Shown one piece after another: positions 1 to 59,361 of a stretch of DNA of 64,000 bases. This DNA comes from Desmodesmus armatus (Eukaryota; Chlorophyta; Chlorophyceae; Sphaeropleales; Scenedesmaceae): positions 1-64,000 of the forward strand of contig VIIQ02000120.1 of NCBI GenBank assembly GCA_007449985.2, read 5' to 3'. Numbering within the stretch: position 1 is the first letter of the stretch; each line of letters starts with the position of its first letter. Position numbers and translations under genes: made by a program. The notes below the pieces were generated by a model. The model made no database searches, was not told where the DNA came from, and saw only the letters and a program-made list of their open reading frames with translations.

Positions 1-608
1 CCCCCCGTCCTCCTGAACTCACCGCTGCATCAATCTGAATCCCCAGCAGCTCCGCCGCCCCGTGAACGTAGCTTGTGACCTCAATGCGGCTGACCACCCC
101 ACTTGTCACACTCATGGTGTCACCACCAATGGGGTAGCCCACCACCGTCACACCCTCCTGCATGCACAAAAAACACACACTTGATTGCATTGAACTCGAA
201 AAAGTGCATGGCATGCAACACATCTTATACCGCAGGCAGGTGTGAATGGTTTGCATGTGTGTTGGCAAATGCTCCCCCTCCCCAATGGGACTGAGGTCAG
301 CCCTTATCAAGGTGTGCCACAACAACGACAGGGTGGGAGGGACTATACTTTGTCCGCACCTGCAGCTGAAGCAGGCCTCCACCAACACCACCGGCTCCAC
401 TTGCCCTTCGCCCCCCCCCCCCCCCCACCTTTTCTTCACCTACCCCGCTCCTTCACCGACCCCTGTGGGCCCCGCAAGCCCCCCCCCCCACACACACAAA
501 CACTGAACACACCTGCAGCTGTGGCAGGCCTCCAAACACCACCGCTCCACGCCCTGCCAGAAGGCATCGTCCTCAACCGTCAACATGGCTGCAGACCAAC
601 GAACATAC

Positions 609-646
<38 letters not shown>

Positions 647-3600: not shown

Positions 3601-5316
3601 TCCGTGCCTAACACACACCGTGCACCCCCCCCCCCCAAAAAAACACACTCATTGTGTCTACACACACACCACCACCAAAACCACCCACTCACCTTTACCA
3701 CTGCCTCCATGATGGCATCACTGTCAGCAGTGAACTGCTTCTTGTGGTGGCTAAACGCCAGGGGGGGCTTGCCCCCTGCTGCTCCCGCTGCAGCAGCAGG
3801 GCCAGGGGCCTGCTCCCCCCCTGCAGCAGCAGATGTGGTGCCACCCCCACCCCCCCTGCGGCCTGCCCTGCGCTGCCGTCCACCGGTGCCCGCTGCTGCT
3901 GCTGCTGCATCGTCTGCTCCTGCTCCTGCTGCTGGTGCTTCAGGGCCTGCAGGAAGTGAAACATGCAGGGTACAGGTGACAATGGCAGTTACAACACGTC
4001 AACCACTGTGTCCAAGCCCTACACCCCTGGTGCTTCAGGGCCTGCAGGACGGGACGGCGACATGCAAGGTACACATGGCAGCTGTCAACTGCAGTACATC
4101 AAGCACTGTGTGCCAAAATCCATTAGTAAAATACTTTTCAATAAATAATAAAACCCCGGAATGGAGATTGGATGTGAACACACCCAAGGGTGCAGGACAG
4201 TTGCAGATCATCCGTACACCAAGCTGCTCCCCTGCTGTAGGGCTGCAACTGTCTGGGGAGAAAGTGCTGTAGTGCACATACGCTCATGGTAGAGCTTCAC
4301 TTGTGACTAAGTGCAGAAACAGCTTCAACACAGCTGTATGCGACTGCATACCTTTGGAGGCTCAGTCGGTGAGTGGGTGCCTGTGCATGGTTGTTTGTCT
4401 ACTGGGAAAGGGTGGGGGAGGGTGCAAACTGAAAGGGAGTGCAAGGCCGGCAAGCAATCACCACGACATTGTCTGGAGACAAAGTGGAGGCTGAGTCGGT
4501 GAGTGGGTGCCTGTGCATGGTTGTTTTCTACCACATGAAAGGATGTGTGTGTGTGGGGGGGGGGGGAGCTGAAAGGGAGTGCAAGGCCGGCCAGCAAGCA
4601 CCACAACATTGGCAGCCTGTCACCCTGCCCATTGGGCCACACAGGGAACAGCAAGCTTACGTTCCCTGGCCACCGTGGTTAGTTGGGGTTGAGACTGGCT
4701 GAAGCAATGGTGCCTTGTATGACTGACCTAGCTTGGCTGCCTGTAGTAACACCGCTGCTGTGTCATGTTCATTCTGCAGATGCTGCCACCCCTAAAACCT
4801 ACAACATCACTCCTCATCCCTAGTTGAACCCTACCCTGCCCCTAAACCCTGCGCACCTGCTGCTCTGCTGCCTCTGCCCCTGCCTGCTGCTGCTGCTGGT
4901 TGAGGTGAGGGCCCTCCATCCTCGTCCATCGCCATCTGAGAGTTTGTCTCCGTGGCCTACGTGAATAAAAGCAATCAGGCAGCATTGCAACAGTTACTCT
5001 ACTGCAGCAGACGCGCGAAGTGCTTCCTGTACACTTCAAGGAGCACCGGTGCAAGCTGGTGTTTCGTACTGAACAGATGAAAAGGCTCCAACATACTGGT
5101 TGTGCTTTCATATGAGCACATTGTGTTGAACTGGGTGAATGAGGTAAGCATGGTGTATGAATGGGGATCAGTTCTGCAGCTAACTGGGCTAAGGTTCTGC
5201 AGTGCTGCAGCCGCAGGTGGTAGTGTGCTGCCGAGGGTGCTGCTGCTGACCTGCTCTAGTTGCTCGTCATCAGACTTCTGGCGCTTCCTGGGAGGTGGTT
5301 TCGCTGTTTTGCCCAT
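1..5316 (-). CDS. DEG9: DEG9-type serine protease (HtrA/DegP family), 3' end outside the window
   Basis: ATP-independent Deg/HtrA serine protease of the plant DEG9 type, which in plants is nuclear/nucleolar. Exons on the minus strand: 5316-5251, 4956-4857, 3946-3693, 1239-1102, 885-811, 588-513, 157-23; all junctions are GT-AG and the phases agree. Exon 1 begins [14 protein letters not shown], a basic stretch that looks like a nuclear localisation signal. Exons 2-3 are Ala/Gly/Pro-rich linker ending in a DAIMEAVVK segment. Exon 4 carries [18 protein letters not shown] and the catalytic His in LTNAHCV; exon 5 reaches the catalytic Asp in ECDI; exon 7 has [12 protein letters not shown] and ends at LLGIQIDAA, just before the GNSGGP serine, which lies off the window. 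Exon 5 lacks one A (near 857) and exon 6 lacks one C (near 548) relative to the family frame; probably assembly errors, otherwise a pseudogene. Shares a roughly 430-bp divergent promoter region with the oxygenase. Confidence 0.9.
360..389 (-). repeat. Decoy copy of DEG9 exon 6 3' edge with donor
   Basis: A degenerate copy of the last ~30 bases of exon 6 (GGAGGCCTGC..CAGCTGCAG) followed by GTGCGG, lying downstream of the true donor inside the exon 6-7 intron. Its coding sense would be GGLLQLQ against GGLPQLQ in the true exon. Confidence 0.6.
610..642. repeat. (CAG)n microsatellite, about 11 units
   Basis: Uninterrupted CAG triplets inside the DEG9 intron between exons 5 and 6, about 20 bases upstream of the exon 6 acceptor in the sense direction. 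On the sense strand it is a CTG run in the polypyrimidine position. Confidence 0.9.
1325..1501 (-). repeat. Two decoy copies of DEG9 exon 4 5' edge with acceptor
   Basis: Copies at 1360-1325 and 1501-1465 match the first ~37 bases of exon 4 ([12 protein letters not shown]). Each is preceded in the sense direction by an AG. Both lie upstream of the true exon (1239-1102). They are separated from it and from each other by G/C-run sequence and lose the frame after the NFSL region. Confidence 0.8.
1762..1925. repeat. Long near-perfect inverted repeat (hairpin) in a DEG9 intron
   Basis: Left arm 1762-1831 and right arm 1857-1925, with a ~25-base loop. The arms pair over about 68 bases with one mismatch and one single-base indel by eye. 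The outer ends are the G and C homopolymers. It lies in the large intron between DEG9 exons 3 and 4, so it would be transcribed as a foldback in the pre-mRNA. Confidence 0.88.
2063..2790. repeat. Intron-internal imperfect direct repeats
   Basis: Segments near 2063-2240, 2496-2590 and 2605-2790 share long similar stretches, for example CTCAACACAAGGAG near 2157 and 2715 and ACAAACTGAG near 2063 and 2607. They are separated by poly-C runs. No coding signal was seen; this is the interior of the DEG9 exon 3-4 intron. Confidence 0.65.
3436..3520 (-). repeat. Decoy copy of DEG9 exon 3 3' edge with donor
   Basis: About 85 bases copy the end of exon 3 (sense reading [10 protein letters not shown] then GTGAGT, against [10 protein letters not shown] in the true exon) and its upstream TTSA.AE stretch. 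It sits downstream of the true exon (3946-3693) in the sense direction. A weaker third copy of the TTSAAAE part lies near 3240-3290. Confidence 0.75.
4022..4041 (-). repeat. Decoy copy of DEG9 exon 3 5' edge with acceptor
   Basis: CCTGCAG followed by GCCCTGAAGCACCAG, identical to the start of the true exon 3 at 3946, lying upstream of it in the sense direction. Confidence 0.65.
4355..4620. repeat. Tandem ~130-bp duplication in a DEG9 intron
   Basis: 4355-4488 and 4487-4620 share GTCGGTGAGTGGGTGCCTGT and CTGAAAGGGAGTGCAAGGCC with interstitial divergence; the second copy has acquired a GT/G run. Intronic, between exons 2 and 3. Confidence 0.8.
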
Positions 5317-5745
5317 GTTTGACGTTGCAAGGGAGCAGCCAGTTGCCGGCCTCAAGATCAGAGGCTTCTGACAAGAGCAGTAGATCGATCTGTAACCGCG
5401 AGTGTGTCTGTGTTGCGGCTGTGGACTCACGCTCGGCGGTCGATATGCAGGTGCCGTTTTCATTCTTTTCCAGACATAGCAAGGAAGCGAACCAGTTGAC
5501 AAACCTGCAGTTGGGGTTCAAACTGCTTAAACTGTCGGGTACACGAGTCTGCAGCTCTGATCGTTGATTGAGCAGTTCAGAATAACTGTATGCTTCCTGT
5601 GACACCGATTGCAGCAAGCTGGCAGCTTCACCTCAATCCTCCTCACCACCACAACAGCAACGTTCACCTTCAACGCTCCTGAGCGCTTTCAATTGTGGCT
5701 TTCGGCAGTCATCGTTTGATTCAACACCGCGTGTTCAGCCACGCC
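5317..5745. promoter_or_regulatory. Divergent intergenic region between DEG9 and the oxygenase
   Basis: About 430 bases separate the minus-strand DEG9 ATG from the first in-frame ATG of the plus-strand oxygenase. It must contain both promoters and 5' leaders. No TATA box or other defined element could be assigned with confidence. Confidence 0.5.
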
Positions 5746-8700
5746 ATGCAGCAGCCTCTCCAGGAGGTGCAGAACTGTCCACAGCAGTTGAGCAAGCAGT
5801 TGTCAAACCGTGAACGGAAAAGCAGCAGCAGCGCCTCCATGCAGCAGCCGCAGGCAAGCACGCAGGAATTGCTGCATGTCTTTGATCTGTCTGAGTTTCT
5901 GGGTCTGCAAGGGGGCAGCAGCCTTCTGCTGCTGTGCTGGAGCAGTGCAAGCAGTTGGCAGAGTGCCTGGTCAAAACAGGTTGCCTGGTGGTGAGTCTTG
6001 CTGCAGGATGCAACACAGGCTCATCATCAAATACTGTTTTTTATTTCAACGCAGCTGAGGCTAGGGCCCTTGCAGCAACCAAGGAAGCACTAGCACAGCG
6101 TGCCGCAGCGCAAACTGCCTGTCGTGCTAGCCATCTCTGTTGCAGCGACAAACAGGGTACTGTGCTGTGCAGCAGGCTTGCTAACAGCAGTGGCTTCTAC
6201 TGGCAGCTACTTTGCAGCGCCTGGTCGAGTGTGACGCCCCTCGGACAAGTCCACAGGGCTTGCAGCCCTGCTTGCAATCGCACCATAACAACCCCCGACC
6301 CACCCCTGCTCAACCCATCCCCTTGCTTGCCAGATATGTGACCCTTGTGTTCCTGCGTCGTCCAACAACACCTTTTTGCATTGATGGAGGACCACCCTTC
6401 CTCCCTGACCACTCCACACCCTCCACTTGCTCCCTACCACCACCACTTCTGCTCTGGACCCCCCCCCCCCCCCATGCCCCCTCCCCGCCCTCCCGCCCTT
6501 GCCTGCCAGATCCGTGACCCCCGTGTCCCTGCGTCGTCCAAAGACACCTTCCTGCACCTGATGGAGGACCCCCCTCCTGCTTCCCCCCATTTTTTGCTCC
6601 CTCACCACCTGCAACCACTGCCTCTCCTGCCTGACCCCCCCCCCCCTCCCCACCCTACCCTACCATCACCACCACCACCACCTCCACCACCACCTCAACC
6701 ACTATCAACCCTGCCCCCACTCCCCCCCTTTGCTCTGTAGATCCGTGACCCGCGTGTCCCTGCGTCATCCAACGACACCTTTTGGATTTGATGGAGGAAT
6801 ACTTTGGACGACCTGAGCAGGACAAAGCACCAGACGCACGGCCAGAGCTGGCTTACCAGGTGAAGGGGGGGGGGTGCTTGGGTATTGAGGGGGTGGAGTT
6901 GGGGGGGGGGGGACTTATCCCTCCACTCATATCCACCTATCCCCTTGGGATCTCAGGTGGTGGGTGGGTGGGGGGCAGGGACAGGCCTGCAACATCCTTG
7001 GGTTCTTGGGGGGGGGCAGGCAGGGGGCGAGCTCACATACAAGACAAGGGCAGACGTGTTTCTTACCGCACCAAGGCTGACAAGGCGCCTGACACACGGC
7101 CAGAGCTGGCTTACCAGGTGGGTTGAGGCCTGATGGTGGCCAAGCAGTAGGAGGAGGGGGGGGGTGCAGGGTGCAAGAAGTGGTGGAGACGTTTCATTTG
7201 TTTCATGCATGATGCTGCCGGCTTGGTGGAGCCCTCTGATATCGCCCTGCTGTCCTCTCCCCCTCCCCCCCCCCCCCCCCCTGCTGTGCAGGTTGGTGTG
7301 ACCCCTGAGGGCGTGGAGGTGCCCCGCTGTGTGGCTGACCCTGAGGGGTGCAGGGCAGCAATACCCCACTCCCCCCCCATCACATTTTGTGGGGCTGTAT
7401 GACCCTCCACAACCACTCAGCTGTTGCCCACCCCTGTCCCCCCCCCCCCCCCCCCCGCGCGCATCCACCCACCCACCCAACACGTCCCTGCGCCTGTGCA
7501 GGTTGGTGTGACCCCTGAGGGTGTTGAGGTGCCACGCTGTGTGGCTGACCCTGAGGGGTGCAGGGCAGCCGTTGAGGCATACCCACCAGAGCACAGACCA
7601 ACACTGCCCACAGGACCTGGTAAGTACTCTACCTCACACCTTTTTGGGTGTTTTTATCTTTGCTTTGGAAAGAACGGTCCTAAAACTTGCTGCTGCAAGT
7701 ATTCTCATTCAGGGTCAGGCCAGACGGCTGCTGTAGATTTAGCTGCTGACAATGGGGCCAGCACACCCAGTAGTAGTAGGGCGATGTGCTGTACGCGAGC
7801 CAGTGTTCAATGCAAGGATTCGACACACTGTCATTTTTGAGATGCAGTCAACATTGCTGCTGAGTGTTGCCCAATGGCTGCTGCTGCTACTGCTGCTGGT
7901 GTCGCTGCAGACGTCAAGTGGCGCTTCTTCTGGCGTGTTGGCAGCCGGCCAGAGCAGACTCAGTACCCTGAGCTCAACGCAGCACCAGTGGTGCCACAGG
8001 TGGGTGGAAGGTGTGTGTGGGTGCGTCTTTTTTGGGGGGGGGGGTTCCCCTAAATGGGAAGGGGCGTTATCGTGCCTGCGCATTCATCTACAGCTGCCCT
8101 GGCTTGTCTTCCTCCCCCCCCCCTCCATTCTTGCCTTTATTGTATCCCCCCACACCCCACCCCCACACCCACTCCTCAACCGGGAGCAGACGGAACTCCC
8201 GAGCTCAACGCAGCACCAGTGGTGCCACAGGTGGGTGGGGGGTACATGAGTTGCATCCGTGAAGTACATGACATGATGACCAGTCGTACTATTGACAGGA
8301 TAGTCTCAAAAAAAAGCTATCAGACACGCACAGGTTTTTTTTATCATAATGATGTTTCACCTGATACTTGTCTGATGTCGGTGCATCTCCTGGCACCCGC
8401 CTCCGGTCTCTGGGACCACTGATTGCCGCAGTGTGTGTCCACCGTCCCACCGTCCCTCCCTCGTACCCAGATCCTTTCTCCCCCCCCCCCCCCTCCCCGT
8501 GTTTACACACACTCACTGTCCACCCAAAAACATCCCCCCCCCCCCCCCCCCACACACACACACAAGGTCTGCCCCAGTGGTCATCTTCTCTGGACAATTG
8601 GGGCAGCAGTCTGCTGTCAGTACGGTCAGCACCATGGCAGCTCTGGGCTTTGGCCTGCCTGCCTCCTGCAACCCTCCCCACCTCAACCCCCGTCCATGTT

Positions 8701-9830
8701 ACCATCCTACCCCCCCCCCCCCCAAAGAATATAACCCCTGGCGCCTGCTCCAGTGTCACCAGCCCTGTTTGTCACCCTCCTGTCCACCTCCCCCCCCCCC
8801 CCCCCCCACACACACACAGGGCTGCCCCAGTGGTCATCCACCCTGGACAGTTGGAAGCAGCCACCTACTCTCAGCTGTCAGCACAGTCAGCACCATGGCA
8901 GCTCTGGGCTATGGCCTGCCCCCCCCCCCTTCCACCTCCCTCCGTGTCATCTCTCAACCTCCCACCTGGCTATCACCCCTGTCCTCTGCTCTTGCCCTGT
9001 TTGTCACTGTCTGGTTCACATGTCGCCCCCCCCCCCCCCTCGCCCCCACACACACATCTCTACCCACAGGGTCTGCCCCAGTGGTCTTCAACCCTGGACA
9101 GTTGGGGCAGCAGTCTGCTCTCAGCTGTCAGCACAGTCAGCACCATGGCAGCACTGGGTTTTGGCCTGCCCCCTGATGCCTTCAGCAAGCTGCTGTCTGG
9201 CGGCCCCCACCTGCTGGCCCCTACTGGCAGTGACCTGGACAAACACGGGGCAGTGGGGACGGTGCTGGCGGGGTTCCACTATGACCTCAACTTCATCACG
9301 GTATGGTGTGGCATGCTGTGTTGGGGGCCGGCCGGGCGGGGGGGGGGGGGGCGTCATGTGAACGGGGGATAGAGGGTGTCAGGGGATGTGGGGGTGAAAG
9401 GGGAACGGGGGGGTAGGGGGATGTGGGGTTTCCGGACAGCTTTGACTGGGAGTGGCATGGGGCAGTGGGCATGGTGCTGGCGGGGTTCCACTTGACCTCA
9501 ACTTCATCACGGTATGGTGTGGCAATGCGGGGGGGGGGGGGGGGTGCTCTGATGGTGGTGCTAGGGAGGGTGTTTTGTGAAAGGGGGGGGGGTAGGGATT
9601 GAGGTGGGGGCTATGGTGGGTGGGGGGTGCTAGGTGGGGTTCCCCCGCCCTTAGGGTGCTAGCACCCTATTCAGCATGGGTTTGGGGGGGGGGAGGATTG
9701 ATCTGATGGGGGGGCTCTGATGGTGGTGCTAGGGAGGGTGTTTTATGAAGGGGGAGGTAGTGGGATTGATCCAGGTGTGTGCTTGCAAGCACAGTCCCAT
9801 ACATGTAATAGACAACTGAGTACAAGCGCT

Positions 9831-9867
<37 letters not shown>

Positions 9868-11755
9868 TGCAGATCCACGGGCGCAGCCGCTTCCCCGGCC
9901 TGTCTGTGTGGCTGGCTGACGGCACACGCTGCAGGGTGGCCATACCACAGGGCTGCCTGCTGTGCCAGGTGGGCGGGCGCGGGGGGGGGGGTGTTTCGAC
10001 GTTGCAGTTGCAGGCTTGTAGTTGTTAGCAGACAGTCCAACAAGGCATTCATGGCGTGCAAACGTTAACATGAACTTGCATCCCCAGGGCTGCCTGCTAT
10101 GCCAGGTGCGGGGGGTGTTTCAGCACTGGAGCTGTGTCTGGAGCTTGAGCTTGCAATTAGCAGAAGACGTCACAGCATGGCATCTATGTTGTGCAAGCAT
10201 CAACATCTGCTTGCCGCTGTCAAGCATGAACTTTGATTATGGTTCACTACCTCCAGCACCTTAGGCTCATGCTGATGCCTTATACATAGTGCAGGCAGAG
10301 AGGTTCAGCTTGGATGTTGACCGTCAAGGAACACTCTAGCCCGTGAACTGGATGCCCGTGAACCGGATGCCCTATCACTGCCAGGATAGAGGCCTGCCCT
10401 GGGTCTGAACGGGCCACGGAGGGTTGGCATGGCTGTGCAAATACAACCTGTGAACCCTTGCCAATGTACTGTGCTGTGCTGTGCAGGCTGGCAAGCAGCT
10501 GGAGTGGCTGACTGGTGGGCGTGTGAAGGCAGGCATGCACGAGGTGGGTCCCCAGTGGGGCTGCTAGACCACTTTCGGCGGGGGTCGGGTGGACGAGGGG
10601 TCGCGTGTGTGTGTGTGTGGGGGGGGGGGGTGATGCAACGTGACGTGAAGAAGGAGTACTGACGGCCCTAGCCAACCCAAGTAAGGGGGTGTTTGGTGGG
10701 CCTCATGGGGGCTGCCATACTTGTGTTGCCTAGTGAGAGATGAGGATGCGTGGTGGGGGTGCCACCACGGTGGCCAAGGGTCAGGGCACGGGGGTGGGCA
10801 TTGAGTGCGGGTGCATCAGTGATGGCTTGTGTTGAGCAACATAATCAGTAAACACTATGTGTGTGTAACCCACTGTATTTTCCTCCAGAAAGGGTGCGGG
10901 CACACCATGGTTGAGCGTCAGCCTGGCACTTGAAAGCTTTGTGCAGCTGTTGTGTAAAGTGGCTAGGCCTGCTGGTGACCAGGATTTGTAGTTTACCTTT
11001 TCATAAGTCCCAGCCGGTGGGATTTAGTCTCAGCAGACCGGCCAGGGCAGCACGAACACTCTTCTTCCCATACTGCTGTCAAGCATTCGCTGTCAAGCAT
11101 TCGCTGTCAAGCATTCATGTCAAGCATTCATGACCAGGATTACTGTTGCCGTTGTGTCCTGGTCCCAGGTTGTGGTGACGGAGGCGACAGCAGCAGCAGT
11201 GACGGCAGCCCGGGCAGCAGGGCGCAGCTGCTGGCGTGTTTCCTCGACGCTGTTCTCCCACGTGGCGTCAGATGTGGTGCTGCAGCCGCTGGGGCCCTTT
11301 GCTGCTGCTGGTGGTGATGGTGATGGTGATGTGGGTGAAGACAATGGTGTTGCAGCAATGCAGCAGTACCCTGCTATCAAGGCAGGCCAGCAGGTGGGCG
11401 AAGGGGCAGGACCTAAGCGCTGCTGACAAAAATCGGTTGTGGAATACTTCGTCGCACATGACGTCGGTCAGTGCTTCATGTTCAGTATCAAGCTGTTGGG
11501 GGCTGGTCAAACATCAGTTGCTATTCGATAATCAGTGACAATTCGTGACAACAGCCATAAGTTGCAGTTTGGGCTCAGGTGTTGTTTGCTGCCAGGGGTG
11601 ACATGTCTGGTGGGCCTGCCTGTCAAATTGCTCTGCTGCTGCTGCTCATGATGATGATTTTGATGCTGCCGCTGCCGCTGCCGCTGCCGCTGCCGTTGCT
11701 GCTGCTGCTACAGGTTCAAGAAGAGCTCGAGGCCATCAAGCTGAAGACATCCTGA
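5746..11755 (+). CDS. 2-oxoglutarate/Fe(II)-dependent oxygenase, clavaminate synthase-like fold
   Basis: Non-heme iron oxygenase of the isopenicillin N synthase/clavaminate synthase-like superfamily; substrate unknown. Exons: 5746-5990, 6741-6859, 7502-7619, 7911-7999, 9070-9300, 9873-9968, 10487-10543, 11169-11393, 11714-11755, about 407 aa. Iron ligands are visible: the HxD pair in GFHYDLNFIT (exon 5) and the distal His in KAGMHEVV (exons 7-8), with a candidate 2OG-binding Arg in WRVSSTLFSH. Other family blocks are IRDPRVPASSNDTF, VKWRFFWRVGSRPEQ, GPHLLAPTGSDL and HGRSRFPGL. The start could instead be the ATG at 5839, 13 residues before VFDLSEFL. Exon 1 lacks one base between LQGGSS and AVLEQCKQ (near 5922), and exon 2 lacks one T at the TTTT near 6780; both restore an excellent family match, so I treat them as assembly errors. 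Coding is under a fifth of the span. Confidence 0.88.
6334..6570 (+). repeat. Two decoy copies of oxygenase exon 2 5' edge with acceptor
   Basis: 6334-6400 and 6510-6570, each after CCAG, copy the IRDPRVPASSNDTFLDLMEE-coding start of exon 2 (true exon at 6741). The 6510 copy stays in frame (DTFLHLMED) longer than the true exon, which has a one-base gap there. Separated by C-rich tracts. Confidence 0.85.
7080..7117 (+). repeat. Decoy copy of oxygenase exon 2 3' edge with donor
   Basis: Reads DKAPDTRPELAYQ followed by GTGGGT, copying the end of exon 2 (DKAPDARPELAYQ then GTGAAG) about 260 bases downstream of it. Confidence 0.85.
7292..7361 (+). repeat. Decoy copy of oxygenase exon 3 5' edge with acceptor
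   Basis: After CTGTGCAG this copies the first 70 bases of exon 3 (VGVTPEGVEVPRCVADPEG) nearly exactly, then diverges. The true exon is at 7502 with the same acceptor context. Confidence 0.88.
8182..8230 (+). repeat. Decoy copy of oxygenase exon 4 3' edge with donor
   Basis: Copies the last ~45 bases of exon 4 (the ELNAAPVVPQ-coding end) followed by GTGGGTGGG, about 230 bases downstream of the true donor at 8000. Confidence 0.85.
8567..8923 (+). repeat. Two decoy copies of oxygenase exon 5 5' edge with acceptor
   Basis: 8567-8661 and 8820-8923 each follow a C-run, a CA-run and AG, and copy about 95-105 bases of exon 5 (GLPQWSSTLDSW through MAALGFGLP). The true exon is at 9070. The unit including the C-run is about 250 bases and is present three times. 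Confidence 0.9.
9441..9511 (+). repeat. Decoy copy of oxygenase exon 5 3' edge with donor
   Basis: Copies the end of exon 5 (AVGTVLAGFH..DLNFIT) with a short deletion that removes the metal-binding Tyr-Asp codons' frame, followed by GTATGGTGTGGCA, identical to the start of the true intron at 9301. Confidence 0.85.
9550..9760. repeat. Direct repeat inside the oxygenase exon 5-6 intron
   Basis: GATGGTGGTGCTAGGGAGGG occurs at about 9551 and 9719, each followed by TGTTTTGTGAA- or TGTTTTATGAA-type sequence and a G-run. Confidence 0.75.
9829..9868. repeat. (CTG)n run immediately upstream of a splice acceptor
   Basis: Interrupted CTG/TTG triplets end four bases before the AG of oxygenase exon 6 (9873), where a polypyrimidine tract is expected. 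Confidence 0.85.
10087..10104 (+). repeat. Decoy copy of oxygenase exon 6 3' edge with donor
   Basis: GGCTGCCTGCTATGCCAG then GTGCGG copies the last six codons (GCLLCQ) of exon 6 and its donor. Confidence 0.75.
11075..11130. repeat. Short minisatellite, ~14-bp unit
   Basis: About four units of GCTGTCAAGCATTC (the last ones slightly changed) lie in the oxygenase intron 30-80 bases before exon 8. Confidence 0.85.
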
Positions 11756-46858: not shown

Positions 46859-49800
46859 ATGGCCGAGCAGAACGGCAGCAACGCTCCAGCTTTGCCTTGG
46901 GCTGCCCAGCAAGGAGCTAATGCAGACGTGAAGCCTGTACAGGACACGAATGAACCCACGACGGTTCGACTAGAGGACCTTCAGCCCGTGAGCACACAGC
47001 AGCTGGGCCTTGAGCCAGGAGCAAGGATTGAGGTGAGCTGTAGGCAGCGACGCCCTCAACTCAGGAGTGCGTCTGTCATGTTTCTGATCAGCCACACTCT
47101 TTCCTGCAGGTCATGTGGGAGGTCACAACAGAGGAGGCAGCAGGAGATGCCAGCAGCAGGGTGAGCCCATGCCCACTTGCCTGCCCCGTGCGATTGGCAG
47201 TTGGTCACATGACAGCTGGACACATCTGCGTGTGCAGGACCCATCGTAGAGTGCAGCTTGACGTAGCAGATACCCACTGCCAGGGCAGTGCTTGTGCTCA
47301 GGGCATCACAGTCAACGGCAGTGCACCACTCAGGCCGCACTTGCAGCACATCCCTGTTGCTTTTGGGGGGAGGGGGGGGGATGTGTTGCCTGACAATACC
47401 TACATCAACGCGATCCCCCACTCAAATTGACTGTGCTGACTGTGCTGATTGTGTCCTGCAGTGGTTCCCTGCCAGCATTTCCTGCACTACCTCAGCACAG
47501 GACCCAGTGCAGGACCCCGCCAGCACATCAGAAGCCCCCACCAGCACATCTGGAATTGCGGCCAAGCAGCTGCACCAGCAGCACCGCTGCATACTCAAGT
47601 GAGCACCAGCCCGCCACTGACTGTCTCACTCTTTTAGCTGTACATGCAGCCCCTTCACTACAGGCGCCTTAGCTGCCTTTTCCTGTTCAGCACTCCCACA
47701 TGCAGTTGTACTTCTGAGCTTGGCTTGACTTAGCCCCAGCCAGTCCTGCAGCTGCCACGCAACTGTCAGCCCCCAGCACAGCGTGATAACAAAGTGTCCG
47801 ACTGGCTGGCGCCCACACTAGGTATTGTGCTGCTGTGCATCAGGCAATGCATCCAGCCCATGCTGACTGTACACCTTGGGCCTCTTCTACACCAGGCCCA
47901 CGCCACCAGCTGTAGCAGGCAGCTCGACATCTGATCATGGCCATGCAATGTTTTATGCATGCACTCCTGTGCTGTGCTGAGGCTTTTGTGCTGTCCTGCA
48001 CTGTCTGTTGTGTGCTGCGCAGGTATGATGGCAGCGAGGAGTTCCCAGAGGAGACTGCCACAGTGCTGCTGCTGTCAGAGCGTGAGTGAACCCCCCCCAC
48101 ACATGTACTTCACCCTGGATGCACTTGCCACGCACATTGCTCATGCCAGCACAGACGCTCTGAACCATCAACCACATGAATCCTCAACTTGGACAGTGTC
48201 ACATCGTGGTGTGTCTCTCCTTTGACATAGCTCTCTGCTGCCTCTCTCCTGTCCCGTGCTGTCCTGCATTGCAGACGAGCTGTATGACCTGGAGAGGCGT
48301 GACACCATGGTGTGGCGGCGTGAGGGCGACAGCTTCGAGCCAGCAGAGGAGTCGGATGAAGAGGAGGGGGAGGAGGATGCGGGCGACGCCAGCGACATGG
48401 AGTGAGTGCGAGCTGTGTTTTCAAGGGGTGGGGGGGGCAGCTTTGAGGGTGTTGATCAGCAAACCCTGGAGAATATTCAAGATGGATGCGCAAACACCTC
48501 TGGCGCCAAAGATGTGTCTTGGGATGAGGTAAGGAGTCAGATGAAGAGGAGGAGGAGGACGCGGGAGAGGCCAGCGACATGGAGTGAGCGCTGTGCATTG
48601 TGGCTGTGCTTTCATTAGGGGTAGGGAGCAGGTTCAAGGCCAGCGACATGGAGTGAGTGCTGGCTTTGGCTGCATTGTGGCGAAGAGAGGGAGGGGGGGG
48701 GGGTGAGCAGTTCCGAGGATGTTTATCAGTGAGTCATGTAGGGGTTTGAGTGATGTTGCAGCAGGCACACACCTTGGGCGCCAAATTTGTGTTTTGGAGG
48801 GGGTAAGGTAGGCAGGCAAGGCTCAGTAAGCTGGAGAAGGAGGCGCGGACCAGCAACATGCAGCTAGTGTGGGCTTGCTTTGTCCCAACACCCTCTGACT
48901 GCGAGAATGAGCATGTTGTTTGATGACAAATTGTTTGATAACTCCTGGCAGGGTTGATGGGACGTGTGGGCCAAACTGTTTTGCAAAGGAGCAAAGGGCC
49001 TCGCAGGACCCAGTGGTGGGCAAGGTTGTGCTGTTGAAAGAGAAGCCCTCGTCACTTACTGCATCCCCCCTGCCCCTGTCTCTTCCTCACACTTGTGCCT
49101 TCTCTATGCCCCCCTCCCATTCCTAACAATCGCTGTCCATGTTGATGCACTCCCCCCACCCCCACCCCCCTTACACACCCAGGGTGTCCCCTGAGGAGGC
49201 TGCTGCTGCTGAGGCTGCCATGATGGAGCGGCTCACGTCCCTCACGCAGACGGAGAAGCAGAAACAGGACCTGGTGGCAGGCTACAACGACTTCAAAAAC
49301 CAGTTCAAGTGAGTGACAGAGATTCGCAGCCAGGTTGGCAGAGATTGGCAGCCAGACGTTGGCAGCCAGGAGTGCAAAGCTCAGAATGGCAGACTATCGT
49401 TGGGCCATTGTAATTGATATTCCCACCCAGTGAGCACTTGCTGGCTGGCTATAATGACTCAGAAACCAATGCAACCCAGTTCAGGTGGCGGGGAGCGTCA
49501 TGGTGGCGGGGAGCGTCATGGAATTAAGTTGGTATCACATGGGCGTTTTTCCGGGCGGGCGCGGCGGGCGGGGCTACATGATGCTGGCACACTTCCCTGT
49601 CCCTTCACACAAACCGCCCACACATTCGCACCCCATAGCCCACCCTGCACACCTTTCACCATGTGCTTTGTATGCCCCCCACCCTCTCCCCCTGCAGGGC
49701 GTTCATTGCCGCCAAGGCCTCGTGTGCTGAGGGTGGTGACGTGCTGATCACCACCTCCAACGTGCTCATCAGCCCAACCTCTAGCATTCTCAATACTAAC

Positions 49801-50117
49801 ATAGCATGTGCACGCCCCCCCCCCCCCCTTTGGCCTCGCAGGGCATTCGTCGCCGCGAAGGCTTCGTGTTCGGAGGGTGGTGACGTGCTGACCACCACCT
49901 CTGACGTGCTCATTTGCCCAACCTCTGGCATTCTCAATACTAACATAGCATGTGCCCCTTGCCCCCCCCCCCCCCGCCCCCGCCGGGCAGGGCGTTCATT
50001 GCTGCCAAGGCCTCGTGTGCTGATGGTGGTGACGTGCTGATCACCACCTCTGATGTGGAGGAGTTCAAGGCCATGATGAACACGCAGCGCGCAACAGCAG
50101 GCGCACACAGGCGGTAA
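46859..50117 (+). CDS. Small acidic nuclear-type protein with a possible Tudor/agenet-like domain
   Basis: 266 aa. Exons 46859-47032, 47110-47160, 47462-47598, 48023-48081, 48275-48401, 49183-49308, 49991-50117; phases agree and no frame problem. The middle, GARIEVMWEV.. WFPASI.. HRCILKYDGSEEFPEETATVLLL then HELYDLERRDTMVWRR, has the spacing of a Tudor/agenet-like barrel (V-W, WFPA, YDG-acidic). This is inference from pattern only. It is followed by a strongly acidic block (EESDEEEGEEDAGDASDME), a helical segment (AAAAEAAMMERLTSLTQTEK) and the tail AFIAAKASCADGGDVLITTS ending AGAHRR. A chromatin or RNA-binding role would fit, but I do not recognise the family. The ATG at 46859 follows a Ser-rich in-frame leader without a better start. 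Confidence 0.75.
48533..48652 (+). repeat. Two decoy copies of Tudor-like exon 5 3' edge with donor
   Basis: 48533-48582 and 48637-48652 copy the acidic end of exon 5 (GCCAGCGACATGGA then GTGAGYGC), downstream of the true donor at 48402. The first is long enough to keep the GATGAAGAGGAGG acidic block. Confidence 0.85.
49484..49521. repeat. 18-bp tandem duplication
   Basis: GGTGGCGGGGAGCGTCAT twice in a row in the intron before the last exon of the Tudor-like gene. Confidence 0.85.
49698..49945 (+). repeat. Two decoy copies of the Tudor-like last exon 5' edge with acceptor
   Basis: 49698-49800 and 49842-49945 each begin after CAG and copy AFIAAKASC.(E/D)GGDVL.TTS. Each then carries identical non-exon sequence (CATTCTCAATACTAACATAG) and a C-run. 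The unit is about 145 bases; the true exon starts at 49991 and alone continues into VEEFKAMMN. Confidence 0.9.
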
Positions 50118-51991: not shown

Positions 51992-52034
<43 letters not shown>

Positions 52035-52361: not shown

Positions 52362-52393
<32 letters not shown>

Positions 52394-55300
52394 GTAGGTA
52401 TGCCCATGGGTCTTACCTGAAGAAGCACTCAGTGTCTCACAGCTTGGCACTGGCCCAGCAGTTTTTTGAGGAGGCAGACAAGCTCATGGCACAAAAGAGG
52501 GTGAGCATGAAAGTTTGCGGTCCTGCTGTGGGTTGGAGCCGACCACTGAAACTGAGGCCGTGTAGCCAGTGATCATCATGCTACAGTCATGCCTCGTCAT
52601 TGATTGGTTTTGGCCTTTGTTTGACAAGAACATGTGAAACCACCCACAGGACCTTGGCAAGTCTGCTTAGCTCTGCGGGAGGTATGGTGGAGAGAAAGAG
52701 TTGCGGTTCTGGGGGTTGCGATGCAGTGTGATGCTCTTGTAAGGGTAAGAAGTTGCATACATGGGGAGTATGACCCTTACAAGAGCATCACACTGCATTG
52801 CAACCCCCAAATTTTACTCCTGGGAAGCCCTGGCCATCCACTCCGGAGGAATTTTGAACGCTTGACATACCCTCCTTGCCCGCCTTTGCTGCATGCCCCT
52901 GCAGGTGACCTTCCTTGAGGGTGCTTCTGGCCTGTTGGTGTGTCGTGCTGTGTTGGCCCACATGAATGGAGATGCAGGCACAGTACAGGGCCTTGTGCAG
53001 GTGAGAGACACAAGGCGCCTCAAGCCGCTTGATGTGCAAATCGCACTTCCCATGTCCTGTGCCTCCAACCCCCCCTCCCAATAGAGTGCAACCCACCCAC
53101 ACAGACAACCCTGGACATCATGTCATGACATGATGTCTTGTCATCAGGTCCTGCAATGCCTGTGGGGCTTATGATTGGTATTTCCAAAGGGGTGGGGGTG
53201 TTATGCAGGGTTGCTAAGACGGCTCAAGAGTGGAGATGCAGGCGCTGTGCAGGGCCTTGTGCAGGTGAGAGGCATCAGGCAATTCATGCTGAACTCATCG
53301 TTATATGGCCTCCCAACACATTGTTGCAGTTCCTGTTGCCTTGGCTTTCCCCAACATTTGGCCCTTTGGGGGAGGGGGAGGCCTGCTTCAATCCTTTCAA
53401 CACCGCAAAAGCTGACTGAGCATCTTGGAAGCCAACGTGTGCACATCCAGGGTGTGCTGCCAGATGCCGCCCACATTACGTCATGCTCCCTTCCTGTGCA
53501 AAGCGGTGTATGCGTATAACATCTCCCCCCCCCCCAAACGGCATGTTTGATCCCCCCATCCTGCATCCAGGGTGTGCTGCCTGGTGGTCCAGGCAGCCTG
53601 CATGGGTGATTGCACATGTCACCTATGCCGGATCACAGCACACATAGATGGAGGCAGCTGTGTCCCTCTTATCCTCCCGCTCACTCTCACTCCCCCTTCC
53701 CCCCCCCCCACCCCCCCCCACCCCCCCCGTAGGAGCTGACAGGGCTGTGGGAGTCTTGCATCCAGGGTGTGCTGCATGATGGCGCCTCAAACACATAGCT
53801 GCGGCCACCCTTCCCTGTCACCCGAACTCCTGCCCCCCCCCCTCCCACCCCTCCTGCCCCCACACCCATGTAATCAACCTGCAGAAGGTTACAGGTCTGT
53901 GGGAGCCGCGCATCCAGGGTGCACTGCCTGTACAGATCCTGGCCCAGCACAGATAGGCAGATGTTGTTGCGCCTCAATGTCCTGCCACCCCGCCCCTTCC
54001 GCAGGAGCTTACTGGGCTGTGGGAGTCGCGTATCCAGGGTGTGCTGCCTGATGGGGAGTGTGAGGTGCTGGCAGTTGCACCCACTAGCGGTGGCCACACA
54101 CAACTGAGTGCCGGTCGAACTCCTGCTGCCCTCCCTCCCACCCCCCTCCCACACCTGACTGTCCACACAGGAGCTTACAGGGCTGTGGGAGTCGCGTATT
54201 CAGGGTGCACTGCCTGATGGGGAGTGTGAGGTGCTCTACGGGCGGTCCGGCTACCTGTACAGCCTCACCTGGCTGCAGCAGCAGCTGGGGAGGGACTTGG
54301 TGCCACAACAGCTGATAAAGGTACGTCAAGTGTGCTTGAGGTTGTTTAGTGTGTTAGCCATTGGGGATGCGTGTGTGTGTGTGGGGGGGGGGGGGTGCCG
54401 CATATACAGTTCAACGTGGCAGCAGCAGCTGGGGTGGGACCTGGTGCCACAAAAGCTGATCAAGGTATGCCAAGCTGGCTTGAAGTTGTAGTGTGTGGTT
54501 TGACACAGAGTTTGCACAGAGTGTGTGTGTGTGTGTGTGGGGGGGGGGGGTGTTGCCGCATACACAGTTCGACGTGGCAGCAACAATTGGGCCAAGGTCT
54601 GGTGCCACAACAGCTGATCAAGGTATGTCAAGTGTTCTTGAACTTGTTTAGTGTGTGTGTGTGTGGGGGGGGGGGGGGTGCCGCAAATACAGTTCGACGC
54701 GGCAGCAGTAAGTGGGCCAATATCTGGCGCCTCAGCAGCTTGTCAAGGTATGTTAAGTGTGCTTGAGGTTTATGTTTATAGTCAGTGGTGGAGAGCAATG
54801 GGTTGGCCACATACATAACAATACGTGGCAGCAGCAATGGGCCACAGCACCTGGTCAAGGTTGGTGCATGGGCAGTAATGGATGAGCCTTCCTGGATGAT
54901 TATGCAGGAGGGGGGTGGCCATCACTGTGGCGTGCGCAAGTGTTGCAGTGGGGTGGATAAACTGTGTCTCATGATGGTGTTTGCCGGGTTGCTTAGTTTG
55001 TCAGCAACACCTGAGCGGTGACCTCACATGCACACCTCAATACAGTGCACTTCCACCTTCGCGTTCCTCTCAGCACACCCTGCTGACATGGGCGTGCCCA
55101 CCTTTCCTGTAGGCTGTCGTGCGGCACATACTCGATGAAGGCATGCGGGGCGCGCGGGAGCTGCAGCAGCAGCAGCAGGCCGGCACCGGCAGCAGCGGTA
55201 GCGGTGGCCGGCCCGCCTCCGTTCAGTGGCCGCTGATGTACAGCTGGCACAACAAACAGTACCTGGGGGCAGCACATGGTGAGAGCATGTGCTTCTTTTT

Positions 55301-58300
55301 GAAATTGAAGAGTTTTTGAATAATGATCAGGTGTGGGATACCACAGAGGGAAGGGGGGGGGGGCTGGATGAGGTGCTTGTTGTGGGCTTTGTCGGGCTTT
55401 GTAGGGGTTAAGCCCTGGTCACTACTGCTGTGTAGTGTATGTCCTCGGCAGTGACTCAGACAGCTAATTGCACATGACAGCTTGCTTGTCGCTTGCAGTC
55501 GTCTGTTGACATCACCGAGTGCTGAGAGCTGTCAGGTGGCCAAGTGTGGTCATCTTGGGTCGCAGTTGCATGCAATGGGCTGACTATGTGCAGACGGACC
55601 CTACCCTGTCTCGAGGTGTGGGCGTTGGTCAGTTAGCTGGGTGGTCGCGGTAGCTTTGACCATGCTGATGTGCAAGAGTCGGGAACAGAGCGCTGAGCCC
55701 AAGCCCCGTCCAGGGGTACAGATATTAGAGTACTGCTCAGCGGTGACAGTATCCACTTGTAACCCCCCCTAAATAATAGGGTACCGCTCAGCGGTGACAG
55801 TATCCACTTGTAACCCCCCCCCCCCCCGCCAATTCAAAGGCAACCACAAGATGGCACCAGAGCCACATTCAACGTCACATGTACAAATCACCTCACAGGC
55901 GGCCGGTGTTGCACTCTGCAGGTATTGCAGGCATTCTGTACGTGCTGCTGCATCAACTGGGGGCGATCAAGCAGCTAGATTCCGAATGCGGCAGCAGTGG
56001 TGGCAGCAGTGGCGGCTACATGGCAGCAGTGCGGGGCACTGCTGATGCACTGGCGGCAGCAGCACTGCCCAGTGGTAACCTGCCAACAAAACTGGGCGAC
56101 TCGGAGGACTTGTGAGTGTGGCACTGGGGTTGCGTTGGGGTGTTGACGTTTCATTCTCCCTGTGGGTGTCTTGTGTGGTGGAGGGCTGTTCGAGGGCTTG
56201 CTGACATTTGCTCCTGTAGCTCAGTGGTCAAACGGAGAGTGAGGCACAGTTGTGCACGCGCTCCCTCACCCCTCCCCAAAGTCCCTTGATAGGTCAGGCG
56301 GCAGTAGTGGCAGCACTGGCGGCTACATGGCAGCAGTGCGCGGTGATGCCCTGGCGGCAGCAGCACTGCCCAGTGGCAAGCTGCCGACAAAACTTGGCGA
56401 CACAGAGGACGTGTGAGTTTTGCGCTTGGGTTGCATTGGGGTCTCATTTCCCCTGTGGGTGTCTTGTGTGGTGGAGGGCGTTTTGAGGGCTTGCTGACAT
56501 TTGCTCCCGTGGCTCAGTTGTTGAACGGAGAGTGAGGCACAGTTGTACACCCCCCCCCCCATGCCCCTTGACAGGTTGGGCGGCATCTGTGACAGCATCG
56601 ACAGTGGCAGCAACCTCAGCAGCTGTGACAGTAGCATGTGCCTTGTCTGGCACTGATTTATACTTCCCTTTAATGTACGTGCAGGCGTGTTGCGTGGTGT
56701 CACGGTGCTGCTGGTCTGGTGCTGGTGGCTGCAGGCTTCTGTTGCATTTTCCCCCTGTTGTACAGAGGCGCTGCTGCATGTGTCTCCTGGCTGGTCTAAG
56801 GTCCCCCCCCCCCCCCCCCCCCCATGGGCCAACTTCTCCGAGAAGGGCCCCCCCTGTGCATACATGCGTGTTGCATGGTGTCATGGCGCTGCTGGTCTTG
56901 TGCTGGTGATGCTGTGCGCTGCTGATCCCCCCCCCCCCCCCCACCCCCACCCCCACCCAGCCCACCCCACCCCCGGTGCCCCTTGACAGACCCTGCGGGG
57001 CAGCGGTGTCAAGGGCAGCAGCAGCTGATTTGAAGGGTGCAGGGAATGCTTGATAATACCATGCGCTGCCACATCCCTGTTGCTGCAAATGCGTGCAGGC
57101 GAGTTGCGTGGTGTCACGGTGCTGGTGAAACCGGGGCCCTTGGGTCGAACAGTGCCCTCGAACATCGCCCTTTTTTGAAACGGCTCTACTTATTGGCTGG
57201 TTTGCTTGAGCATCACCCCCTCCCCCTCAAACTGCCCTCCTTGTACGCATGCAGGCGTGTTGCGTGGTGTCACGGTGCTGCTGGCCTGGTGCTGGTGATG
57301 CTGAGGGCTGCTGACGTGCTGGGTGACCCTGGTGGGCGATACATGGCAGCAGCACGTGCAGCAGCAGATGACATCTGGCAGAGGGGACTGCTGCGCAAAG
57401 TGAGAAAAGAGGGGGGGGGGGGGCGGAGAAGGAGGGCATGTCTGCAAGGCAATGCAGCCACCGGGGGGCAGGGGGGGGTGAAGGGAATGAGAGCAGCAGC
57501 AGCAGACCACATCTGGAAGCGGAGAGTGTTGCGCAAGGTGGGGAAGAGGAGTGTGGTGTGTGTGGGGGGGGGGAGACTGACTTGCAGGAGACGATACATG
57601 GCACTCTGGTGGGGCGTGGGGCGGCGTGATGGGGGTGATTGGTGGCAATGGGTGAGCATAGGGTGACCGTCACATTCTCAAGATAGATATGTGCTTCATT
57701 TGCATCTCTCCTCCTCACATCTGACGTCTTGAGCCATGTTGGGCTGTGCGATGATACAGCCGGCAACGGGTCTGCATTGCCAAGAGTCTGGTGCCTCTTT
57801 GCTTTCCCCTCTTCCCCGCCGTCCCCAACTATGACAGGGTGTGGGTCTGTGTCATGGCATCTCTGGCAACGGCTACGCCCTGCTGGCCATGGCCCGGGCC
57901 ACCCAGGCCCCACACTACCTGAGGGCTGCCCGGGCCTTTGCCATGTACGCCGCACAACACTGGCAGGAGCTGTATGATGGGCCTGACAGGCCGGCAAGCC
58001 TGTTTGAGGTGGGTTTTCTTGATTGCCATGTGTGTGTGTGGGGGGGGGGGGTGAGGTGGGTTGGGCTTTGGGTGAGGAGGAGGGGAGTTGTTTGAGTTGT
58101 AGGTTGCTTGCAGGAGATAGCAGGGACTGGGCCCATGCGGGACAGGGATGTGCCACATGCATGACAGGACAGCAGTGCTCGAAGTGTGGCCGTGTTTCTT
58201 CCGAGATGGTTGGGTGCTGGCAGGATCTGTATGATGGGCCTGACAGGTCGGCAAGCCTGTTTGAGGTAGGTTGGGGTTGGTGGGAGCAGGGATGAGAAGG

Positions 58301-59361
58301 GGGGGTAGGGTGTGTGTGCCGTGTAGCTAAAGGATATCAACTCCCTGCAGCCGGGCTGGCAAGCATGCAGGACAGGATGAGCTGCTACATGCTGGGTGCT
58401 GGCAGGAATTGTGTGAAGTGGGTGGCGGGCCGGCAAGCCTGTTCGAGGTGGGTTGGGGGGAGATGAGAGCAGTGTGTGTGTGCGGGGGGGGGGGGGGGGG
58501 CGACGTGGATTGTTTGCAGGAGACAGCAAGGATGGGGGGCATGCAGGGCAGGATGTGCCACATGCATGCATGACAGCAAGGCTACAGTGTGTCGCCATGT
58601 TTGTAGCTGGCAGGACTGGGTGCTGGCAGGAGCTGTATGATGTGCCTGACAGGCCGGCAAGCCTGTTTGAGGTGGGTTGGGTGAGAGCAGGGAGGGGGGG
58701 ATGTGGTAGGGATGGGGGGGGGGGGGATTGGTTGCAGGAGTGAGGTGGGTCGGCGCGGACAATCAACTTCCTGCGCCAGGGGTGGGGGGCATGCAGGACA
58801 GGGTGTATTGCTACAGTGTGTGGCCGTGTTTTGCTGGGTTAGGGTTTGGAGGGTCGGGTGCTGGCAGGAACTGGCTGGCAGGAGCTGTATGACGTGCCTG
58901 AAAGGACAGCTAGTTCTTTTGAGGTGGGTTGGGGGTATGTGAGAGCAGGGAGGGGGGGGGGGCGCTGTGTGTGTGGGAGACTTTTTTCCTGAGGTGGGTT
59001 GGTTGTAGTTGAGGGCAGGGATGGGGGGCATGCAGACAAGAATGTGCTTCCGCAGGCCCCCGGGGAGGGGGGGGGGGGGGGTGATTGCTTGGGGCGGGGG
59101 AGGGGGGGGTGCTTGGAACAGGAGCATGTTGACGTCTCTAGGTTTGGATGAGTGTGTTACCCCGTGCAAAGGGTGCAATGGCTCTTTGGTGTTTTTTGTG
59201 GGTGCAAGTATCGAGTGGCACTTACACCCCCCCCCCCCCCGCATTGACTAATCCCGTCTGTGCTATGCTTGGTCGTGCTGCAGGGTGTGTCTGGTGCCAT
59301 CAACTTCTGGCTGGATGTGTTGGACCCGCAACACAGCAGGTGGCCAGGGGCAGAGCTGTGA
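51492..59361 (+). CDS. LANCL: LanC-like protein (LANCL), complete
   Basis: Eukaryotic relative of bacterial lanthionine cyclases; animal LANCLs add glutathione to dehydrated Ser/Thr in damaged proteins. Ten exons: 51492-51593, 51837-51955, 52398-52500, 52905-53000, 54171-54320, 55113-55278, 55922-56111, 57255-57399, 57838-58008, 59284-59361; 1320 coding bases, 439 aa, every junction GT-AG and in phase, no indel. Family landmarks: GIYVGLGGVGLTYLRMA (exon 2), FLEGASGLLVCRAVL (4), YGRSGYLYSLTWL (5), GIAGILYVLLHQLG (7), VAWCHGAAGLVLVMLRAADV (8), GLCHGISGNGYALLAM and YDGPDRPASLFE (9), GVSGAINFWLDVLDP (10). The zinc ligands are present: Cys in AWCHG and Cys-His in LCHG. A Gly/Ser-Ala insert in exon 7 is unusual. 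Introns make up five sixths of the gene and are full of exon-edge copies. Not a bacterial lantibiotic cluster. Confidence 0.95.
51993..52033. repeat. (AGC)n microsatellite, about 13 units
   Basis: Pure AGC triplets followed by AGCACC-type variants in the LANCL exon 2-3 intron, 38 bases after the donor. Confidence 0.9.
52085..52315 (+). repeat. Three decoy copies of LANCL exon 2 3' edge with donor
   Basis: Near 52085, 52166 and 52295 the sequence GGGCTTCAAGTGAGCAGAC or a close variant repeats the exon 2 end and donor (GGATTCAA|GTGAGCGGA). The second has GC instead of GT and so has lost the donor. CAG-rich repeats lie between them. Confidence 0.8.
52362..52392. repeat. (TGC)n run before LANCL exon 3 acceptor
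   Basis: About ten CTG/TGC units end five bases before the TAG acceptor at 52395-52397, taking the place of a polypyrimidine tract. Confidence 0.9.
52711..52808. repeat. Near-perfect 36-bp inverted repeat (hairpin) in a LANCL intron
   Basis: Arms 52711-52746 and 52773-52808 with a 26-base loop. The only mismatch by eye would be a G:U pair in RNA. It lies in the exon 3-4 intron, about 100 bases before the exon 4 acceptor. Confidence 0.92.
53114..53137. repeat. Perfect 24-bp palindrome
   Basis: GACATCATGTCA followed directly by its reverse complement, in the LANCL exon 4-5 intron. It also carries ATGTCATGACAT internal symmetry. No known site assigned. Confidence 0.85.
53231..53264 (+). repeat. 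Decoy copy of LANCL exon 4 3' edge with donor
   Basis: GGAGATGCAGGCGCTGTGCA.. CTTGTGCAG then GTGAGAGGC, copying GDAGTVQGLVQ and the donor of exon 4 (true donor at 53001). Confidence 0.88.
53441..54070 (+). repeat. Five decoy copies of LANCL exon 5 5' edge
   Basis: Copies at 53441-53470, 53561-53587, 53733-53783, 53885-53931 and 54005-54070. All contain the ATCCAGGGTGTGCTGCC-type core; the last three follow a recognisable acceptor and encode (E/K)(L/V)TGLWES.IQG. They get longer and more exact toward the true exon at 54171. C-rich tracts separate them. Confidence 0.9.
54416..54859 (+). repeat. Four decoy copies of LANCL exon 5 3' edge with donor
   Basis: Copies at 54416-54464, 54573-54622, 54698-54747 and 54823-54859 match the LTWLQQQLGRDLVPQQLIK end. 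The first three are followed by GTATGY, the last by GTTGGT. The first three are each preceded by a (GT)n-G(n) run and GCCGCA.ATACAGTTC.ACG. They lie downstream of the true donor at 54321. Confidence 0.92.
56297..56412 (+). repeat. Decoy copy of LANCL exon 7 3' edge with donor
   Basis: About 115 bases copy GGSSGGSSGGYMAAVRG.. PTKLGDTEDV then GTGAGTTTT (true end at 56111). A weaker copy of the GGC-AGC part follows at about 56577-56645. Confidence 0.88.
56685..57126 (+). repeat. Three decoy copies of LANCL exon 8 5' edge
   Basis: 56685-56735, 56864-56925 and 57099-57126 copy RVAWCHGAAGLVLVML (true exon at 57255). The first and third follow GTGCAG exactly like the true acceptor. C-runs separate them. 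Confidence 0.9.
57492..57537 (+). repeat. Decoy copy of LANCL exon 8 3' edge with donor
   Basis: GCAGCAGCAGACCACATCTG.. TTGCGCAAG then GTGGGG copies the ADDIWQRGLLRK end of exon 8 with a few substitutions. Confidence 0.82.
58218..58923 (+). repeat. Four decoy copies of LANCL exon 9 3' edge with donor
   Basis: 58218-58265, 58398-58447, 58624-58671 and 58875-58923 copy WQELYDGPDRPASLFE followed by GTRGGTTGG. True donor at 58009. Spacing is about 180-250 bases, and G-runs lie between several of them. Confidence 0.93.

Follow-up and report, generated by a model that had tools for sequence, protein, structure and literature searches.

Introns of six genes in the analysed stretch of 64,000 nucleotides (the window, C116:1-64000, of a genome assembly of 115.8 Mb in 831 contigs) contain partial copies of the adjoining exon edges. 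Very probably these copies arose by tandem duplication of short units, some 120-300 bp in length, across exon-intron junctions, with the outermost splice site predicted to stay in use, the intron lengthened and the protein unchanged. The genes were DEG9, an unnamed minus-strand gene located at 3.7 kb (the 3.7-kb gene below), an oxygenase, a PP2C, a gene at 48-50 kb and LANCL, presenting 48 exon-intron junctions. Junction positions were derived from homology, frame and the splice consensus, with some (3.7-kb gene, DEG9 donor 513) placed by eye alone. The last or first 50 nt of the exon edges served as probes. Both strands were searched over 2.5 kb in each direction, or up to the window edge where this was nearer; a match had to score at least 30 and higher than any of 60 dinucleotide-shuffled versions of the intron-side sequence. 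Thirty-six sense copies were located on the intron side and one on the exon side, antisense matches numbered zero on the intron side and one on the exon side. Both exon-side matches traced to the probe of acceptor 49183, of which they shared one 20-nt part. Intron-side copies were present at 22 of the 48 junctions, 14 of 24 donors and 8 of 24 acceptors, with zero to four copies per junction. The side bias was highly significant per copy (36 versus 1, binomial p = 6e-10, the members of an array being non-independent) as well as per junction (22 versus 1, p = 6e-6). Direct orientation and proximity to the source, with 36 sense and no antisense copies on the intron side, are the attributes of a junction-spanning tandem duplication. 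An earlier note on this DNA had stated that copies of 3' edges lie only downstream and copies of 5' edges only upstream of their exon. This rule held without a convincing exception; equal numbers of 3'-edge copies on both sides would have contradicted it, the 48 junctions were strongly one-sided instead. The number of about forty copies given there is near our count, and sub-threshold remnants are readable by eye, e.g., at 58055, 58744 and 58994.

The copies shared 77% to 98% identity with the exon. Within three bases of the expected place, GT was present in 17 of 20 donor copies and AG in 14 of 16 acceptor copies; the remaining five of the 36 copies included a doubtful, CAG-rich match in the 3.7-kb gene at -961. 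The copies, termed decoys below, were distributed over the first five genes as follows (the repeat self-comparison named in the list dropped CAG-type repeats):

357-407, minus strand: DEG9, decoy of exon 3' edge with GT (GTGCGG), downstream of used donor 513, 85% identity
1326-1503, minus strand: DEG9, two decoys of exon 5' edge with AG, upstream of used acceptor 1239, 94% and 90% identity
3406-3466, minus strand: 3.7-kb gene, decoy of exon 3' edge with GTGAGT, downstream of used donor 3693
6319-6649, plus strand: oxygenase, two decoys of exon 5' edge with AG retained, upstream of acceptor 6741
7079-7120, plus strand: oxygenase, decoy of exon 3' edge with GT (GTGGGT), downstream of donor 6859, at +258
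7284-7359, plus strand: oxygenase, decoy of exon 5' edge, upstream of acceptor 7502, 96% over 76 bp
8184-8238, plus strand: oxygenase, decoy of exon 3' edge with GTGGGT, downstream of donor 7999
8530-8923, plus strand: oxygenase, two decoy units comprising C-run, AG and exon 5' edge, upstream of acceptor 9070
9456-9539, plus strand: oxygenase, decoy of exon 3' edge with GTATGG, downstream of donor 9300
10082-10114, plus strand: oxygenase, decoy of exon 3' edge with GT, downstream of donor 9968
22892-23179, minus strand: PP2C, two decoy units of exon 3' edge, downstream of donor 23327, spacer homology for the first only
48532-48681, plus strand: 48-50 kb gene, decoy of exon 3' edge with GTGAGC (probe search) and a second, shorter one with GTGAGT (repeat self-comparison), downstream of donor 48401
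49440-49490, plus strand: 48-50 kb gene, diverged decoy of exon 3' edge, downstream of donor 49308, 77% identity, also seen by eye
49675-49908, plus strand: 48-50 kb gene, two decoy units comprising C-run, AG and exon 5' edge, upstream of acceptor 49991

In LANCL, decoys and coding exons were located at:

53225-53280, plus strand: decoy of exon 3' edge with GTGAGA, downstream of donor 53000
53712-54069, plus strand: three decoy units of exon 5' edge, upstream of acceptor 54171, spacer homology in one of three
54419-54770, plus strand: two decoy units of exon 3' edge with GTATG and a third, sub-threshold one from the repeat self-comparison, downstream of donor 54320
56297-56597, plus strand: 307-bp decoy unit (3' part of the exon, GTGAGT, intron), downstream of donor 56111, spacer identity 84%
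56674-57127, plus strand: three decoys of exon 5' edge, two of them with AG, upstream of acceptor 57255
57496-57549, plus strand: decoy of exon 3' edge with GTGGGG, downstream of donor 57399
58211-58958, plus strand: four decoy units of exon 3' edge with GTGGGT or GTAGGT, downstream of donor 58008, spacers repeated in four of four
52905-53000, 54171-54320, 55113-55278, 55922-56111, 57255-57399, 57838-58008 and 59284-59362, plus strand: coding exons with the outermost sites, placed by homology, frame and splice consensus

We infer that duplication was the event, that purifying selection acted as a filter and that the decoys go unused. The unit duplicated head to tail would consist of an exon end with the intron start, or of an intron end with the exon start. 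At a donor, the first copy would stay joined to the exon body, and its donor alone would restore the old mRNA; at an acceptor, the last copy would be the one joined to the exon. The unjoined copy would become intron and drift free of constraint. More rounds, including the duplication of whole array segments, would build the arrays. The positional rule would follow from tandem duplication and selection for an intact protein, no special mechanism is needed.

The sequence between the copies reveals what was duplicated. Each spacer was compared with the sequence after the next copy (200 shuffles, p<=0.01). Homology was detected in 17 of 36 comparisons, with 68-91% identity and mostly in matching order; since the between-copy sequence itself repeats, exon edge and intron were duplicated together. 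For the two units at 8530-8923 of the oxygenase, none of 200 shuffles was as good as the repeated spacers. In the other 19 comparisons no residual homology was detected at p<=0.01. Successive steps measured 120-301 bp in 34 of the 36 copies, the median of all was 196. In several arrays the repeat was as long as the offset, approximately so or longer (e.g., 55990-56597 with an offset of 307; 22892-23401 with an offset of 209), a mark of head-to-tail duplication of a junction-containing unit. The repeated spacers and these lengths supported the proposal of the earlier note that tandem duplications had spanned the junction. Spacer homology was missing beside some copies that resembled the exon by 90-96%, namely at LANCL acceptor 57255, at oxygenase donors 6859 and 7999, and for the farther copy at 49991. 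Such a loss is not predicted from plain duplication with equal decay. Fast intron turnover by insertions and homopolymer change, or gene conversion from exon to decoy, would explain the loss of spacers beside well-kept copies. Alternatively, break repair or polymerase template switching may have placed a short exon edge together with unrelated filler into the intron. Such templated insertion would account for the 19 of 36 spacers lacking detectable homology despite alike exon copies, and several repeat blocks terminate almost at the splice site, only a few bases away. It is nevertheless unlikely as an explanation of the arrays, for 17 spacers are homologous and most keep the matching order. 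In one case on another contig (L027) the lost spacer homology was found displaced by about 150 bp (4704-4788 versus 5097-5182, beside 4982 versus 5225), as expected from a duplication followed by a later insertion.

The decay of the copies was less regular than the earlier note had anticipated. The nearest copy was the most similar one in only six of ten arrays, in the other four the identity did not fall steadily, which gives poor support to a graded decay of the decoys. In LANCL, the copy at 58623 differs from the used edge in 1 of 56 bases, GTGGGTT included. The best LANCL copy (98%) is 663 bp away and flanked by copies at 84%, and a 209-bp segment is repeated at an offset of 406, so whole array segments have also been duplicated or exchanged. 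Substitutions and indels were analysed in 34 of the 36 copies, two with unassigned frame being dropped. Twenty-one of 22 indels were not multiples of three, therefore the copies behaved as unconstrained, non-coding sequence. Where at least two copies agreed against the exon, all seven sites were at third codon positions, which indicates that the exon side stayed constrained. The raw excess at third positions (34/23/84) was rejected as a proof of decoys having coded, because 21 of the 22 indels break the frame and shared exon changes were counted repeatedly. Changes assigned to the copies retained a mild third-position excess (21/16/35, p 0.018), which stands against duplication with unconstrained drift.

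Decoy sites are probably not used in splicing, as judged from frame, homology and orthologs. Only five of the 36 decoys, if put in place of the outermost site, would preserve the frame and introduce no stop. The outermost-site models of LANCL and the oxygenase were collinear with orthologs over the whole query. The claim that only the outermost site serves is thus backed by homology, i.e., by the orthologs of these two genes, and by the low number of frame-compatible decoys (five of 36). Many decoys equalled the used sites in splice-site score: 11 of 17 donor decoys with GT and 6 of 14 acceptor decoys with AG scored at least as high as the used site, in a donor and acceptor scoring built from the used sites themselves and hence favouring these. 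The high scores, and the GT in 17 of 20 and AG in 14 of 16 copies, would also be compatible with decoys selected as splicing regulators, e.g., as decoy exons or in the control of intron retention. To judge from the sequence, such a role is quite improbable. The retention of GT approximates the neutral expectation (about 15 of 20 at a mean donor-copy identity of about 0.87), the copies carry frameshifting indels, and their number varies between zero and four across junctions. Duplication across junctions may even be the main engine of intron length here, a tentative reading to which we give somewhat less than an even chance: exon edges would be turned into intron by a one-way ratchet, and introns would accumulate splice sites, of which roughly every second one (17 of 31 intact ones) scores like a real site. 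If the ratchet reading is true, what decides site choice is position together with the context of the exon, as exon definition would have it, rather than the sequence of some 50 bases around the site, and dozens of natural matched pairs are at hand for testing it. If decoys are ignored by the cell, the genome holds pairs of used and unused sites sharing exon edge and site, on which exon definition versus local strength is directly testable.

The gene models differed in their affiliation to known proteins. One DEG9 exon matched Protease Do-like 9 (PDB 5ila, E 6e-24), and PP2C had a clear Pfam match (E 6.2e-32). The 48-50 kb gene, called Tudor-like in the earlier note, has an open frame, yet no Pfam match was obtained and the label is unconfirmed. 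The oxygenase model, built with outermost sites from after the frameshift in its first exon, comprised 201 residues and matched isopenicillin-N-synthase-type dioxygenases in full length with up to 62% identity (best 120 of 616 matches). Among the matches listed, one transcript-derived protein (eukprot) shared 69% over 86%. A version of 148 residues had no Pfam match of its own. The frameshift, one base in a T run of exon 6741-6859, is absent from the decoy copy 6496-6649 (by eye) and is either a sequencing error or a real lesion. An oxygenase intron also harbours an inserted dispersed element (approximately 8244-8433) with at least 40 or so partial matches genome-wide among the matches listed.

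The LANCL protein was assigned to PF05147 (E 3.5e-53). Its outermost-site model shared 63% identity over 100% of the query with relative P0001 and was aligned to six relatives without insertion at the exon joins; the best relatives bearing an organism name were Monoraphidium and Raphidocelis, so that the DNA likely stems from a green alga of the Sphaeropleales. Edge copies may mislead gene annotation. In relative P0003 the gene model skips the exon matching 55113-55278, and the next exon begins inside, at about the window decoy unit at 56297; possibly this model is a mis-annotation led by a decoy-like copy. Two further repeats were observed in LANCL introns: in an intron without detected exon-edge copies, a 51-bp unit occurs about twice at 93% (55722-55820), and an inverted repeat at 52710-52809 has arms of 37 nt that are 97% complementary.

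Intron growth is mostly ascribed to mobile elements and small insertions. In the window, much added intron sequence is traceable to its source. Lengths were compared for 20 introns of four genes with both ends modelled; DEG9 and the 3.7-kb gene were thereby outside the set, as were two oxygenase introns, one at 7620 and one after 9968. Eleven introns with copies measured 438-1275 bp, nine without copies 77-643 bp (p 0.0006). Array span was taken from the used junction to the junction of the farthest copy, and arrays occupied 5420 of 9403 bp, i.e., 58%, of the 11 decoy-bearing introns. The phrase of the earlier note that introns are built from copies was thus an overstatement for the set, copies being present in 11 of the 20 introns. 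Subtraction of the arrays gave a mean of 362 bp for the 11 introns and of 364 bp for the nine decoy-free ones (p 0.82), that is, array removal restored the length of the neighbours. The claim that repeated rounds lengthen introns was supported by this agreement, which fits ordinary introns grown by added units; but long introns also give copies more room. Homopolymer runs were associated with the arrays. Runs of nine or more were present in all 11 introns with copies versus 5 of the 9 without (p 0.026), and in 20 random regions of the genome, CAG-type matches and a satellite in L027 being dropped, runs and arrays correlated with rho 0.61 (p 0.004). On the sense strand of the 20 introns, 22 of 27 G runs of at least nine were in the donor half and 16 of 21 C runs in the acceptor half. 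This is an association only; in some window arrays read by eye, duplication breakpoints had no steady placement relative to the runs. Long G and C runs also form the ends of an inverted repeat at 1764-1925, with 57-nt arms of 98% complementarity.

The type of mutation is known. Gao and Lynch reportedly described in 2009 a ubiquitous internal gene duplication, in which exons and introns are retained or newly formed; this is the same mutation class, covering splice sites. Tandem genomic duplication is a well-described source of new introns, including an intron-exon unit in potato (PMC3443670, PMC4974935). The AGGT model of intron gain and its ATP2A1 case (PMC3443670, PMC4974935) have in common with our arrays that a head-to-tail intragenic duplication makes extra splice sites and that the added sequence can be concealed by splicing. 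In that model the doubled piece is exonic and bears AGGT, with a new intron between the copies; here an existing junction is doubled, the old intron grows and the copies have one site type. In the measured introns a duplicated exonic AGGT supplying both sites of a new intron was not observed, the copies being donor or acceptor edges inside the adjoining existing intron. The potato RdRp gene shares a unit spanning the intron-exon border with branch site, pyrimidine tract and 3' site (PMC4974935), but gained a new intron and extra exon sequence once, whereas here 22 of 48 junctions follow a polar rule and no new intron was seen. Thus the known outcome in these reports is a new intron, here it is a longer old intron full of presumably unused sites, repeated across many junctions. 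Decoy exons in intron retention likewise are unused splice sites within introns (PMC12017769); in comparison, the copies here appear, by their sequence, to bear no sign of selection. Mutually exclusive exons comprise a whole exon with both sites and an open frame; we found single-edge copies with many frameshifting indels, a pair at the PP2C-family locus L030 being a possible whole-exon case. Introner elements similarly cause a mass change of intron content, yet form dispersed families (PMC9860276), whereas the decoy units of 8100-9600 were present only at their own locus; dispersed were the element at approximately 8244-8433 and C/CA-rich stretches. Dispersed introners were rejected from this one 1.5-kb query only, in which no intron sequence common to many unrelated genes was detected by a search that skips very common words. 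In the parts of the open-licence papers covered by our literature search the pattern was not found described, a weak hint of novelty, and the available parts of two green-algal genome papers (PMC5966456, PMC8226300) did not mention it. Within this literature, density and polarity at many junctions represent the new aspect.

The pattern was not restricted to the window. An assembly artefact yielding false repeated units is hardly credible, for although G and C runs of 10-26 bases abound in the stretch and a 1-base frameshift was seen by eye in a T run of one oxygenase exon, the copies differ by 2-23% and their flanks differ where false joins should give near-identical copies, and similar pairs occur on other contigs. 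In the F-box genes of the window, which according to the earlier note lack the pattern, 13 candidate junctions, pattern-picked and some of them doubtful, yielded one putative intron-side match, none on the exon side and two putative antisense ones. The BLAST self-comparison, which overlooks some tandem pairs of very short offset, gave in the F-box stretches no direct pair closer than 1.2 kb, save a 69-bp array at 63256-63518. A separate tandem listing contained further short arrays in these stretches, among them one at 20296, a 43-bp pair missed by the self-comparison. Twenty random 10-kb regions of the same genome were screened with a strand-blind rule, that coding continues outward of a repeat pair and not between the copies; CAG-type pairs, overlapping pairs and pairs less than 100 bases from a region end were dropped. 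Coding potential was higher outward in 21 of 30 pairs, not so in the remaining nine; the window gave 33 of 43. At a score of at least 8, a cut picked after seeing the scores, 15 pairs were outward and three inward, two of these three also scoring outward. The 15 outward pairs were in six of the 20 regions (L012, L014, L017, L022, L024 and L027), and splice-site-bearing edge copies were plain by eye in L012, L014 and L027. Many regions had few or no repeat pairs. Eight PP2C-family loci elsewhere (11.9 kb), a gene set not picked for copies, included five without copies. Locus L033 had one donor-edge copy on the expected side with GT now AT, by reading a likely case. L030 had CAG-type matches beside its pair, and L035 one short pair. 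The random regions and PP2C loci together place the pattern on other contigs, but in a patchy manner. The satellite in L027 extends over 7191-10000 with a unit of about 242 bp, the copies of which are 97-98% identical.
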